NCBI RefSeq assembly: GCF_014218335.1
Contig: NZ_AP023367.1
Coordinates: 3,287,501-3,351,500 of the forward strand
Direction of reading: 5' to 3'
Length of the DNA: 64,000 nucleotides
Origin: Anaerocolumna cellulosilytica
GTDB lineage: Bacteria; Bacillota; Clostridia; Lachnospirales; Lachnospiraceae
In this document: piece by piece, positions 10,747 to 13,878 of the stretch
How positions within the stretch are numbered: position 1 is the stretch's first letter
How the letters are laid out: every line of letters starts with the position of its first letter
The notes under the pieces: model-generated
Databases searched by the model: none
What the model was told of the DNA's origin: nothing
What the model saw: the letters and a program-made list of their open reading frames with translations, nothing else
Position numbers and translations under genes: made by a program

Positions 10747-12069
10747 TTATGGTTCTAACCGACTAATATCTCTTGGGAAAAGCGTTGTCTCCCTGACATT
10801 ACTTCTTCCCAAGAGACACATGGTCAGCCTTTCTAAGCCCATTCCAAGACCACCATGCGGCGGTATACCGTATTTATGAATCATCAAATAACTTTCAAAA
10901 AGCTCTGGATTCATCTTTCGTTTTAACAACTTATCAACCTGCTCTGAGTAATCATGTATACGCTGTCCACCTGTGGTAATTTCTAATCCTCTGCATAAAA
11001 GGTCAAAACTTAAAGTATATTGTTGGTTTTCTTTATCCTCCATTGCATAAAAAGGACGTTTTGAGGTTGGATAATGTGTAACAAAAACAAATTCCGAATG
11101 ATACTGTTTTTTTATCAGTTCACACAAAAGTCTTTCTTCTTCCGGTTCAAAATCTTCATAGTCCTTAATTTCTCTTTGGTAAGCTTTATGAATCATCTCT
11201 TTAGCCTCTGCAAATGTTACGCAAGGAATTTCTTCTACCTTTGGAAGAACTATTTCCAGGAGATTTAATTCATTCTTATAATTTCTCTCTAAGGAAGCCA
11301 TAATCTCTTGTAATAATTTCGTTTCCATCTCCATAATTTCCTTAAAGTCTTTTATATATCCCATCTCTAAGTCAATACTGGTATACTCATTTAGATGCCT
11401 TGAGGTATCATGCTTTTCTGCTCTATACACAGCCCCGATTTCATACACCCTGTCATATACACCCACCATCATCTGTTTATAAAACTGAGGACTTTGGGCA
11501 AGATAAGCTTCTCTTCCAAAATAGTCCAGTCTGAAAATATTTGCTCCGCCTTCTGCTCCGGCATACACAATCTTGGGACTGTGTATTTCTGTGAAAGCCT
11601 GACTCATTAAAAATCCTCTAACTGCCGCACATATACCCTCTTGCAGCTTAAAAACAGCTCTTTCTTTCTCATTCCTGAGGGTAATCGGGCGATAATCCAA
11701 TATTGTCTCTAAGGAAGCCGCCAGTTTCTTGTTATTAATAACTACAGGCATTTCTTCCGCCGGTTTTGATAATATAGCCACTTCTTTTATGCGAATCTCA
11801 AATCCTAATTTAGAACGGTTATCCTCTGAAACCTCTCCCTTTAGTTCCACACAATAATTTTCCTTTATATTCTCCAAATCAAACGCTGCGTAATCACTGC
11901 TATAAATGCATTGAATTAAACTTCTTCCTGTTCTTAAGACTATAAAAGCAAAGCTGCTCATACGCCTTATTTTATACACCGATCCACATACTACTATAGC
12001 TTCTCCAATCTGATATTTTAAATCCTCTTCGTTTAAAAGAGGGGTTACTTCACCTTTAATTGCTGCCAT
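10747..12069 (-). CDS. aspS: Aspartyl-tRNA synthetase, archaeal-type (likely Asp-tRNA(Asx) ligase)
   Basis: 440 residues, with an N-terminal OB-fold anticodon domain and a class II catalytic core: YRAEKHDTSRHLNEYTSIDLEMGY (motif 2 region) and GLGMGLERLTMCLLG (motif 3). It lacks the GAD insertion of the bacterial AspRS (about 590 residues), so it is the short archaeal/eukaryal type found as a second AspRS in clostridia, generally non-discriminating and paired with GatCAB to make Asn-tRNA(Asn). The upstream region carries a long leader with an Asn/Asp-rich mini-ORF and a strong terminator, suggesting attenuation. Specificity is inferred. Confidence 0.88.
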   Translation of the reverse strand: MAAIKGEVTPLLNEEDLKYQIGEAIVVCGSVYKIRRMSSFAFIVLRTGRSLIQCIYSSDYAAFDLENIKENYCVELKGEVSEDNRSKLGFEIRIKEVAILSKPAEEMPVVINNKKLAASLETILDYRPITLRNEKERAVFKLQEGICAAVRGFLMSQAFTEIHSPKIVYAGAEGGANIFRLDYFGREAYLAQSPQFYKQMMVGVYDRVYEIGAVYRAEKHDTSRHLNEYTSIDLEMGYIKDFKEIMEMETKLLQEIMASLERNYKNELNLLEIVLPKVEEIPCVTFAEAKEMIHKAYQREIKDYEDFEPEEERLLCELIKKQYHSEFVFVTHYPTSKRPFYAMEDKENQQYTLSFDLLCRGLEITTGGQRIHDYSEQVDKLLKRKMNPELFESYLMIHKYGIPPHGGLGMGLERLTMCLLGRSNVRETTLFPRDISRLEP

Positions 12070-12223
12070 ATTAATTCCTCCGTTTCTTTCAACATACGAA
12101 TACTTTAATTAACTTTATTCATAGACCATTTTTCCTACAGGGCTTTGATAACTTACAAGTTATCACTTACAACATAATCTATATGCTGCATGGTATCACA
12201 ACCTTTCAAATGTTAGAAATAAC

Positions 12224-12268
12224 GACAAAAAACCACATTGGTATTTTATCTAACATACCAATGTGGTT
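12224..12268 (-). terminator. Strong intrinsic terminator in the aspS leader
   Basis: The 14-bp perfect stem 12231-12244 / 12255-12268 (AACCACATTGGTAT and its complement), with a 10-nt loop, is followed on the minus strand by T6. It ends a transcript coming from the promoter at 12728-12756, about 155 bp before the aspS start, so it either terminates an independent RNA or acts as an attenuator. Confidence 0.85.
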
Positions 12269-12613
12269 CTCTATTCATGCTAACTCCCGCTACTAGTACA
12301 AACCAAGGTGTGAAATCGCCTTACATTTCATAGTAACCTACATGTCTAAAACTTTTTCATAAACCTAACTCTAACTTGAACATGCACGCAAACAACTATG
12401 CCATTTTTCAATGCCTGAAAACTTTAGGATTCTTGAATTAAAGTTTATACATAATAACGGGATGTGTAATACACTCCTACCTTTAACAGCAATTTTTATG
12501 AAGTTATCATATTTAGTGCTCAAAAATAGTAACTCGCTTTTTACACCTTTATTTGAATGAATAACCAACATAGGTACAAGCCATACAGCGCTTATACCTA
12601 TGGAACTCCACAG

Positions 12614-12670
12614 CTATAAGCGCATACTATCATCGTCCCTGTTAAGTTGGTTATTCAGCCATTGATTCAT
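12614..12670 (-). CDS. Possible 18-residue Asn/Asp-rich leader peptide
   Basis: The mini-ORF ATG...TAG encodes MNQWLNNQLNRDDDSMRL: four Asn and three Asp codons in 18, upstream of a tRNA synthetase for Asp and probably Asn. GGGTG lies 8 bases before the ATG. The Asn codons lie in the 5' arm of the closing stem and the stop codon lies in the 5' arm of hairpin X, so ribosome position would decide which of the two alternative stems forms. It is too short to prove as coding, and Asn codons are common in AT-rich DNA. Confidence 0.4.
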   Translation of the reverse strand: MNQWLNNQLNRDDDSMRL

Positions 12671-12727
12671 AATTTACACCCATTGAGTATCACAAGAATG
12701 CCTGTGATACTCCCTTTTGATTTTCAC

Positions 12728-12756
12728 ATTTTATCATTTGCTTTTTAGTTTGTCAA
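12728..12756 (-). promoter_or_regulatory. Consensus promoter of the aspS leader RNA
   Basis: On the minus strand: TTGACA (12751-12756), exactly 17 bp, TAAAAT (12728-12733). Transcription should start near 12721. Before the IS insertion this -35 box lay about 6 bp from the site now duplicated, right after the ATP-grasp gene stop. Confidence 0.8.
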
Positions 12757-12760
12757 TATT

Positions 12761-12786
12761 ATTTTAATTATTTCTGCAACTCCTCT
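12761..12786 (+). repeat. 26-bp target-site duplication, left copy
   Basis: Identical over 26 bp to 13853-13878 (sequence around AATTATTTCTGCAACTCCTC). The right copy contains the last codons and stop of the downstream ATP-grasp gene, so the left copy is a duplication made by insertion of the IS between them. Confidence 0.85.
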
Positions 12787-13852
12787 TGTAGGATTACAAT
12801 ACATGTGTTACAAATAAAAGAAAAATAAAATACGGAACCGTCTCTTTTGTGTTATATTTTAGTCACCACAACAAAAACATTAACAAAGGAGCGTTTCCGC
12901 ATGGCTAGTATAACACAGGATATGAGATATCGTCTATCATTAATTAAATATGCTGAGAAATTTGGTGTAACCAAGGCTGCTATCAAGTACAAAACCAACC
13001 GGCAATACATTTACCGCTGGAAACGCCGCTTTGATGGCTCTATCGAGTCTTTACGAGAGCTATCCCGTAGACCTCATTCACACCCAAACCAACATTCTGA
13101 AGCTGAAATAAAACTTATTCATGATATGCGGCGACGTAATCCACACGAAGGCCTTGTTGTTTTCTGGGTGAAACTTATGCAACGTGGATATAAAAGATCT
13201 ATCCCTGGTTTATACCGCTTTCTTAGAAAAGGAAAACTAATGGCTATCAAGCCAGCTAACCCTAAATATATTCCAAAACCTTATGAGCAGATGAAGTACC
13301 CCGGACAGCGCGTTCAAGTCGACGTAAAGCACGTTCCGGCGGCTTGTATTGTCGGTGATGCAAAAGGCCAGAAATTCTATCAATATACTGCAATTGATGA
13401 GTACTCCAGATTTCGTTTTGTAGAAGCTTTTAATGAATCCAGTACCTATACTTCTACTCAATTCCTGGAACATCTAGTTAATGCCTTTCCTATGCCTATT
13501 GAGTGTATTCAAACAGATAATGGATTTGAATTTACAAAAAGATTTGGTAGCCACAAGCTAGATCCTTCCCTGTTTGAAAAGAAGTTACAATCCTTAGGGA
13601 TAAGACATAAACTAATCCGTCCATTTACACCAAGGCATAATGGGAAAGTGGAGCGTAGCCATCGCAAGGACAATGAACGTTTTTATGCTACACATAGTTT
13701 CTTTTCTTTTGATGACTTTTCAAAACAGCTAAATATATATAACCGAAGGGATTATAACAACTTTCCGATGAGACCTCTAGGCTGGAAATCTCCTAGAACT
13801 ACTCTCATTAATTTCTTGAAGTATGGTGTAACATATGTTTGACAAACCAACA
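12787..13852 (+). mobile_element. IS481-like insertion sequence, 1066 bp, apparently complete
   Basis: Starts TGTAGG and ends CCAACA. Its terminal 26 bp are imperfect inverted repeats (about 19 of 26 match, ending in TGTTACA). It encodes one DDE transposase and is flanked by a perfect 26-bp direct repeat. That duplication is longer than usual for the IS481 family. The insertion sits exactly at the 3' end of the ATP-grasp gene without breaking it. Confidence 0.88.
12901..13842 (+). CDS. IS481-family transposase
   Basis: 313 residues from the ATG after AAAGGAGCGTTTCCGC. It has an N-terminal helix-turn-helix (FGVTKAAIKYKTNRQYIYRWKRRF) followed by an rve-type integrase core. The putative catalytic triad is D141 (VQVDVKH), D206 (QTDNGFEF) and E251 (NGKVERSHRKD). 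It is intact, so the element may be active. It fills almost the whole IS. Confidence 0.92.
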   Translation: MASITQDMRYRLSLIKYAEKFGVTKAAIKYKTNRQYIYRWKRRFDGSIESLRELSRRPHSHPNQHSEAEIKLIHDMRRRNPHEGLVVFWVKLMQRGYKRSIPGLYRFLRKGKLMAIKPANPKYIPKPYEQMKYPGQRVQVDVKHVPAACIVGDAKGQKFYQYTAIDEYSRFRFVEAFNESSTYTSTQFLEHLVNAFPMPIECIQTDNGFEFTKRFGSHKLDPSLFEKKLQSLGIRHKLIRPFTPRHNGKVERSHRKDNERFYATHSFFSFDDFSKQLNIYNRRDYNNFPMRPLGWKSPRTTLINFLKYGVTYV

Positions 13853-13878
13853 ATTTTAATTATTTCTGCAACTCCTCT
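13853..13878 (+). repeat. 26-bp target-site duplication, right copy
   Basis: Perfect copy of 12761-12786. It overlaps the stop codon (13860-13862) and last codons of the following minus-strand gene, so it is the ancestral copy. Confidence 0.85.

Follow-up and report, generated by a model that had tools for sequence, protein, structure and literature searches.

On the minus strand of a 64,000-nucleotide stretch of the Anaerocolumna cellulosilytica genome (hereafter the window, to whose positions all coordinates refer; G and L numbers are our handles for genomes and loci), the gene aspS2 (10747-12069) encodes a 440-residue archaeal-type aspartyl-tRNA synthetase (AspRS2) of the family named aspartate--tRNA(Asn) ligase, whose product passes the AspRS2 cut-offs of NF003483 (557.7 vs 353 bits) and TIGR00458 (396.5 vs 368.4 bits). 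It is preceded by a leader region (12756-12224) in which a promoter, an 18-codon open reading frame (ORF 1), two hairpins designated X and Y, and a terminator, T, follow one another. An initial annotation of the window had reported these parts, and our analysis confirms that they exist. Comparison with relatives alters the interpretation: the region appears to be an aspartate leader-peptide attenuator, built on a scaffold of a known leader-peptide type and hosted by gut and soil clostridia.

ORF 1 (MNQWLNNQLNRDDDSMRL and a stop codon, 12670-12614) contains four Asn and three Asp codons, as first described, and its codons R-D-D-D (AGG GAC GAT GAT, 12629-12640) make up segment 1. Segment 2 (12608-12623), which carries the ORF 1 stop codon, is the 5' arm of X, segment 3 (12588-12603) is both the 3' arm of X and the 5' arm of Y, and segment 4 (12566-12581) is the 3' arm of Y. 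X (12623-12588; -23.1 kcal/mol, z -7.3 against dinucleotide shuffles) and Y (12602-12569; -20.1 kcal/mol, z -5.2) are thus mutually exclusive through segment 3, as had been claimed, and both are stable and show compensatory changes. The terminator (segments 5 and 6, then a U-run; 12269-12230; -21.3 kcal/mol, z -5.9) is as strong as originally proposed; none of 200 shuffles matched the stability of X, Y or T, and the entire leader folds with a z of -7.9. Downstream of Y lies UUGGUUAU in the window and GUGG in most relatives, with no proper U-run, and a loose terminator scan scores Y plus UUGGUUAU as terminator-like in the window. No family of Rfam 15 matched anywhere in the window at the gathering cut-off, and a relaxed-threshold scan gave nothing relevant to the leader. 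The T-box model (RF00230) was found neither at its gathering cut-off in the window nor among 11 relaxed matches over 12060-12900, which bears out the reported lack of a T-box motif.

The leader core recurs in 11 of 15 genomes of the genus by DNA similarity and in a twelfth (G001) by covariance model; the remaining three (G006, G007 and G009), searched by DNA similarity without a model, are 63-75% complete. A covariance model built from 11 genus sequences (R1) matched 21 of 397 genomes of the family, or 19 of 334 by genus, one of them (G061) an Asn-codon variant. A broader model from 56 sequences (R3) matched 27 of the 397 at an E-value of 0.001, which on inspection comprised 22 Asp leaders, 1 Asn-like and 2 His-codon leaders and 2 chance matches, and 9 of 391 genomes in a class-wide sample: the Anaerocolumna genome itself, two Asp leaders from outside the family, three leaders with the peptide LNNGYN, two His-codon leaders and one before a transporter gene. 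Two further candidates (L280 and L281, E about 5e-4) were judged chance on inspection, and in a set made up of G109 and 38 family genomes chosen for having no Asp leader, 28 of the 33 weak R3 matches (E up to 2) outside G109 were inspected, all looking like chance. A pattern scan of named contigs gave at least 120 stretches, two of which (L076 and L129) are chance; 80 entered the detailed leader work, and the other 40 (L132-L171) were inspected for peptide and downstream gene only. Removing 2 chance stretches and 18 near-identical copies from 109 pattern-bearing entries left 89, then 88 different leaders without L100 (61 nucleotides) and 87 without L127 (which ends early). AspRS follows in 83 of the 88 (78 AspRS2, 5 bacterial-type), and the other 5 end too soon. 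Homologues without the mini-ORF or stems had been named at the outset as grounds for abandoning the leader interpretation, as had a match to an unrelated RNA in Rfam; the outcome favours a leader, with parts that are conserved, covary and are linked to AspRS.

That linkage also bears on whether the region might instead be an independent small RNA gene that ends by chance before aspS, as its own promoter and terminator and one intact leader without AspRS (L154) could suggest. At least 149 pattern-bearing entries were collected from all sources, copies included, of which 131 have AspRS downstream, 15 end within 49-877 nucleotides, 2 are chance and 1 (L154) precedes another gene. AspRS therefore follows in 131 of 132 informative loci among the matches listed, and it is of two types (122 archaeal-type AspRS2, 9 bacterial-type); together with the covariation of the antiterminator and terminator arm described below, this makes a free-standing small RNA extremely improbable. 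At L154 itself, the gene that follows the intact Asp leader and terminator is alcohol-dehydrogenase-like and has a promoter-like sequence of its own, and there is no AspRS within 3.7 kb. At L148 the AspRS gene behind the leader is of bacterial type and has suffered a large internal deletion.

The peptide carries a triple Asp that is constant in all 87 leaders, with codons GAC, then GAC (77) or GAT (10), then GAT. The residue before RDDD is Asn in 73, His in 12, Tyr in 1 and Thr in 1 (Gln in G255), and the stop lies at +15 from the Arg codon in 42, +24 in 31, +12 in 9, +30 in 3 and +36 in 2. Since pattern-selected loci are included in this set, its peptide letters are partly imposed. Leaders that the models found outside the pattern carry KDDD (L036, G255), QRDDD with CGA (G441), TDDD (G456), RRDDD (G285) or GDDD (G175), and in 6 of 6 found this way the sensor codons lie 17 nucleotides from X. 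Frame 0 offers an ATG with a Shine-Dalgarno (SD) sequence in 76 of 87 leaders, frames 1 and 2 in 0 of 87 each; the SD of ORF 1 in the window is weak (-3.7).

The initial annotation had ribosomes stalling at either Asn or Asp codons and inducing a non-discriminating synthetase that charges both tRNAs. The mix of codons in ORF 1 and the family name aspartate--tRNA(Asn) ligase point that way, as do two non-Asp variants with Asn codons, LNGNNN (G061) and LNNGYN before a second AspRS (G764, G605, G645). When codon conservation is checked, however, DDD is constant whereas the four Asn codons of ORF 1 in the window are not conserved among Asp leaders. The charging of both tRNAs, for its part, has only the family name behind it, the genome also encoding a canonical AspRS, an asparaginyl-tRNA synthetase (AsnRS) and a second AspRS2 beside the leader-bearing one (a fifth match is probably LysRS by its size). 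That second AspRS2 carries a T-box whose specifier, by position, is AAC, and with AsnRS also present, Asn appears to be sensed elsewhere. Judged by conservation, the sensor element would be Asp-Asp-Asp, Asn sensing is not supported, and a dual sensor is unlikely; ribosome-mediated attenuation of aspS through X and Y stands for Asp.

The same division is seen across leader-bearing genomes, where 12 of 14 AspRS2 paralogs carry a T-box by motif and model. These T-boxes score 52-88 bits against an Rfam gathering cut-off of 93 and would therefore escape standard annotation, and the specifier is AAC (Asn) by position in 8 of 8 readable cases. The T-box loci include L185 and L357-L371 before paralogous AspRS2 and L372 before a second bacterial AspRS. 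In a tree restricted to leader-linked proteins of sufficient length, 52 leader-linked AspRS2 and the 14 paralogs form separate, fully supported clades; the sister paralogs are mostly under T-boxes, apparently for Asn. A canonical-type AspRS, by score (409.7-425.4 bits), is also present in 17 of 19 genomes (18 with Asp leaders, and G061), and in view of this the leader would control an additional AspRS; in the other two, the match in G058 is cut by a contig end and no canonical AspRS was found in G043 (86% complete).

The switch depends on a helix missing from the initial annotation. The 5' arm of T (CCACATTGGTAA in many species) is complementary to the 3' arm of Y plus the GUGG that follows it, and in the resulting helix, Z, region 4 and its partner change together from clade to clade (GCGG with CCGC, UGUGA with UCACA). 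Among 75 leaders (those of the 88 whose terminator reaches -14 kcal/mol or lower, the set used in the folding tests), none of 10,000 sets of permuted pairs was as good as the matched pairs, and again none of 10,000 after thinning to 43. In a pair table of 77 leaders (63 different), 77% of cells pair, compared with 27-48% when the arms are slid, in a register picked for its fit. When the 75 leaders are folded with everything before position +16 of the Arg codon masked, as by a ribosome on the first Asp codon, X forms in 70, Z in 68 and both in 67; when they are masked to the stop codon, Y forms in 73 and Z also in 16.

Without masking, X forms in 72 of 75 folds and Z in just 17, because segment 4 is then paired with the Asp codons themselves, in a helix designated W (64 of 75). 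RDDD can be written in 48 synonymous ways, and none pairs more strongly with the consensus segment 4 than the coding most often seen in nature, which shares the top place; native W duplexes average -9.1 kcal/mol against -5.1 for random synonymous codings. When the Asp codons are shuffled or recoded, Z appears in 253 and 260 of 375 folds, respectively. As W holds segment 4 in most ribosome-free folds, the antiterminator strand would, as modelled, be free mainly under a ribosome on the Asp codons.

With the letters of the terminator arm shuffled, Z-like pairing still arises in 176 of 375 folds, which makes folding by itself a modest test. W is not universal: 23 leaders, chosen as unusual clades or other specificities, were compared singly with random synonymous codings, and 6 of them reach a fraction of 0.05, while W is ordinary in six (G255, G441, G285, L048 and both hisG leaders); all six Arg-codon leaders described below reach 0.035 or less. 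In the window W is weak (-5.6), and a closing stem, P1 (12 base pairs, 12657-12646 with 12569-12558; P1 plus X -46.3, z -6.1), is strong in its place. P1 had been noticed initially and holds up within the genus, where 12 Anaerocolumna leaders give -13.1 for matched and -9.0 for permuted pairs (0 of 2000 as low), but in 75 other leaders it is weakly supported (-7.5 vs -6.8; 1 of 300 as low), and we rejected it as a core element.

Taken together, the leader has what marks a leader-peptide attenuator: a translatable ORF with an SD, cognate codons in a row and evenly spaced from the switch in every case measured (DDD before AspRS), and exclusive stems that tie ribosome position to the terminator (X, Y, Z and T in the masked folds). 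We put at roughly 85% the probability that it is a ribosome-read transcription attenuator of aspS2 that senses the charging of tRNA(Asp) through its Asp codons; ribosome stalling, changed termination and the charging signal are what we infer from this arrangement. Its six segments would pair as W (1:4), X (2:3), Y (3:4), Z (4:5, the antiterminator) and T (5:6). If Asp-tRNA(Asp) is scarce, the ribosome would stall on the Asp codons of segment 1 and X would form just downstream, releasing segment 4 from both segments 1 and 3 to pair with the 5' arm of T, so that polymerase reads into aspS2. With plentiful Asp-tRNA, the ribosome would go on to the stop codon in or beside segment 2, blocking X, Y would take segment 4 and T would terminate transcription. 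If ORF 1 is not translated at all, W (with P1 in Anaerocolumna) would keep segment 4 and T would again form.

The same scaffold is found with other codons before other genes. HIHHH precedes hisS in G461 (confirmed by profile) and G762 (by resemblance; loci L290 and L294), and HHHHHH precedes hisG of a hisG operon in G109 (confirmed) and G405 (by resemblance; L291 and L293); these His-codon leaders occur in another clostridial family and in one genus of Lachnospiraceae. LRRRxRRK or a near form precedes argS at five Anaerocolumna loci (L375-L379, three identified by profile and two by N-terminal resemblance), and a sixth Arg leader, in the A. cellulosilytica genome itself (L295/L374, C1:2353886), precedes penicillinase-repressor and BlaR1-type genes; first matched at an E-value of 0.54, it was retained only once related leaders had been located ahead of argS. 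All six have W, X, Y, Z and T. Three further variants, LNNGYN (before a second AspRS of bacterial type), LNGNNN (before a nucleosidase gene) and FFNNHF (before a transporter gene in G447), are putative cases. By these comparisons, Clostridia use one modular scaffold for genes of at least three amino acids, Asp, Arg and His.

This exchange of codons also speaks to the idea that what halts the ribosome is the RDDD peptide and not uncharged tRNA, making the leader a nascent-peptide or antibiotic sensor. In favour of it, the peptide is short with a near-fixed end, and acidic runs destabilise ribosomes. Yet the codons switch to Arg or His along with argS, hisS and hisG behind the same scaffold, and the residue before DDD may be Arg, Lys, Thr or Gly, so we regard peptide-driven arrest as quite unlikely. 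The leaders may belong to a retargetable class of Clostridia attenuators, a view to which we give slightly better than even odds, in which the sensor codons lock the antiterminator strand and a joint swap of codons and complement (Asp, Arg, His, perhaps Asn) changes the target, with the AspRS2 version adding a second Asp checkpoint in a hairpin micro-ORF past the terminator. That strand would be held by the codons when ORF 1 is untranslated and by segment 3 when translation completes, leaving it free only with a ribosome halted over the codons.

The micro-ORF in question (MQHIDYVVSDNL and a stop codon, 12191-12153), like helices Z and W, is absent from the initial annotation. It has an extended SD (GAAAGGTTGTGAT, 12195-12207) and a 6-base-pair hairpin with a 7-nucleotide loop (12170-12188) directly 3' of its start codon. 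In 70 of 88 leaders, a search allowing up to 4 mismatches found, past the terminator, about GAAAGGNNGUGAU, a start codon and M[GRWQ]H.D[DY][VA]..D; in L013 codon 2 is a stop, and a deletion cuts L121. All 54 different copies have Asp at codon 5, and 53 have it at codon 10, a position that the search motif does not cover. In the hairpin, 93.8% of cells pair and five of the six base pairs have changes in both partners; 0 of 500 shuffles are as high on either measure, and 20 of 500 are as high in the number of further pair types. A model of this hairpin (R2) matched 14 of 397 family genomes strongly (49.7-70.1 bits), 12 of them R1 leader genomes, the other two having a diverged leader (G255) and a broken locus (G020). 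Matches below about 30 bits were dismissed as noise by the score gap (the next stands at 29.8); E-values alone would admit 234 of the 397. In G020, the terminator and micro-ORF 2 stand without ORF 1 or aspS (L189), a decayed locus or an assembly chimera.

The hairpin accompanies 68 of 78 unique AspRS2 leaders and none of 5 bacterial-type ones, as might be expected if AspRS, or a small molecule, bound the leader directly and ORF 1 were incidental; some synthetases do control their own mRNA, such as E. coli ThrRS in the account drawn on here (PMC2965389). Conservation of the frame and SD, the swap of codons with gene identity and the fixed spacing from codons to X make direct binding very unlikely for the leader, arguments that leave the second hairpin alone outside their reach. 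For micro-ORF 2, a second Asp checkpoint, an mRNA-stabilising SD and an AspRS2-binding hairpin are all candidate roles.

Firmicutes are commonly viewed as a T-box phylum. T-box leaders (RF00230) likewise sense tRNA charging and control synthetase transcription there, and the sister AspRS2 paralogs have them, whereas the Asp leader has no T-box match. T-box regulation in Clostridium acetobutylicum reportedly covers the AspRS2/GatCAB pathway, and control of tRNA-dependent amidation genes by T-boxes in that species was reportedly described by Saad et al. in 2012 and 2013. Both are cases of RNA control of that pathway, through a T-box and Asn in C. acetobutylicum and a leader peptide and Asp in Anaerocolumna.

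Leader-peptide attenuators for His are on record in Firmicutes, for hisS*/hisZ in bacilli (PMC2965389) and for his operons in the Bacillus cereus group, Peptostreptococcaceae with Lutispora, and Erysipelotrichales (PMC9413887). They share with the Asp leader a cognate-codon ORF, attenuator, antiterminator and terminator before a synthetase paralog or biosynthetic operon; compared by description, the Asp and Arg leaders, a scaffold common to several specificities, sensor codons on the antiterminator strand and the second Asp micro-ORF set the present system apart. In the E. coli/Salmonella his attenuator, pairings AB, CD and EF alternate with BC and DE (PMC10989985), and X, Y, Z and T resemble BC, CD, DE and EF, respectively. 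Unlike in A:B there, the partner of the sensor segment in the Asp leader is segment 4, not segment 2 (64 of 75 unmasked folds), and we accordingly class it as a variant, not a member, of the his-type six-segment attenuator.

Searches of the open-access PMC literature, none of them aimed at argS leaders, turned up no description of aspS being attenuated through an Asp leader peptide. In PMC2965389 and PMC9413887, leader-peptide attenuation of amino acid genes in Firmicutes is documented for His, and Asp and Arg would widen it; a retargetable class, if real, would be the leader-peptide counterpart of T-box modularity. Genomes that combine one AspRS2 clade under apparently Asn-type T-boxes with a second clade under Asp leaders would offer a natural side-by-side of two strategies, and they raise the testable question of why cells keep a spare inducible AspRS. 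Protection from naturally occurring inhibitors of AspRS (microcin C-type compounds, for instance) is only a guess, and open-access literature listings yielded no link to microcin resistance.

The promoter (TTGACA-N17-TAAAAT, 12728-12756) matches 11 of 12 consensus positions, in keeping with the consensus promoter first reported, but the scan finds 2 promoter-like sites where shuffles average 4.4, so it is weak evidence by itself. A 5' hairpin (GAGTATCACAGG/CCTGTGATACTC, 12685-12712), outside the conserved leader, is a copy of a genus repeat. That repeat element, ending in AATGGGTGTAAA (window 12712-12666; L020-L027), often stands just 5' of the starts of unrelated genes throughout the genus, as if it supplied a ribosome-binding site.

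The AU-rich stretch between segment 4 and the terminator (12280-12556), noted initially as an unexplained run of 290 nucleotides, is present and is now read as an insertion, since the spacer measures 288 nucleotides in the window and 3-114 in 74 other measured leaders. It holds part of a dispersed repeat (52 nucleotides, 83%, resembling G000:C1:1794143) and brings with it a strain-specific mini-ORF, MNREPHWYVR (12278-12246), with an SD-like GGGAG, that overlaps the 5' arm of T and could, if translated, disturb termination. An origin of the entire leader from a repeat or insertion sequence was rejected, recurrence in the genome being limited to the 5' hairpin, part of the AU-rich insertion and an adjacent insertion sequence. 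This IS481-family element (1066 base pairs, 12787-13852) lies 30 base pairs upstream of the -35 box of the leader, flanked by a 26-base-pair target duplication (12761-12786 and 13853-13878); the duplication of a second copy (L002) also measures 26 base pairs and that of a third (L003) about 25. A 26-base-pair duplication is unusually long for an IS481-family element.
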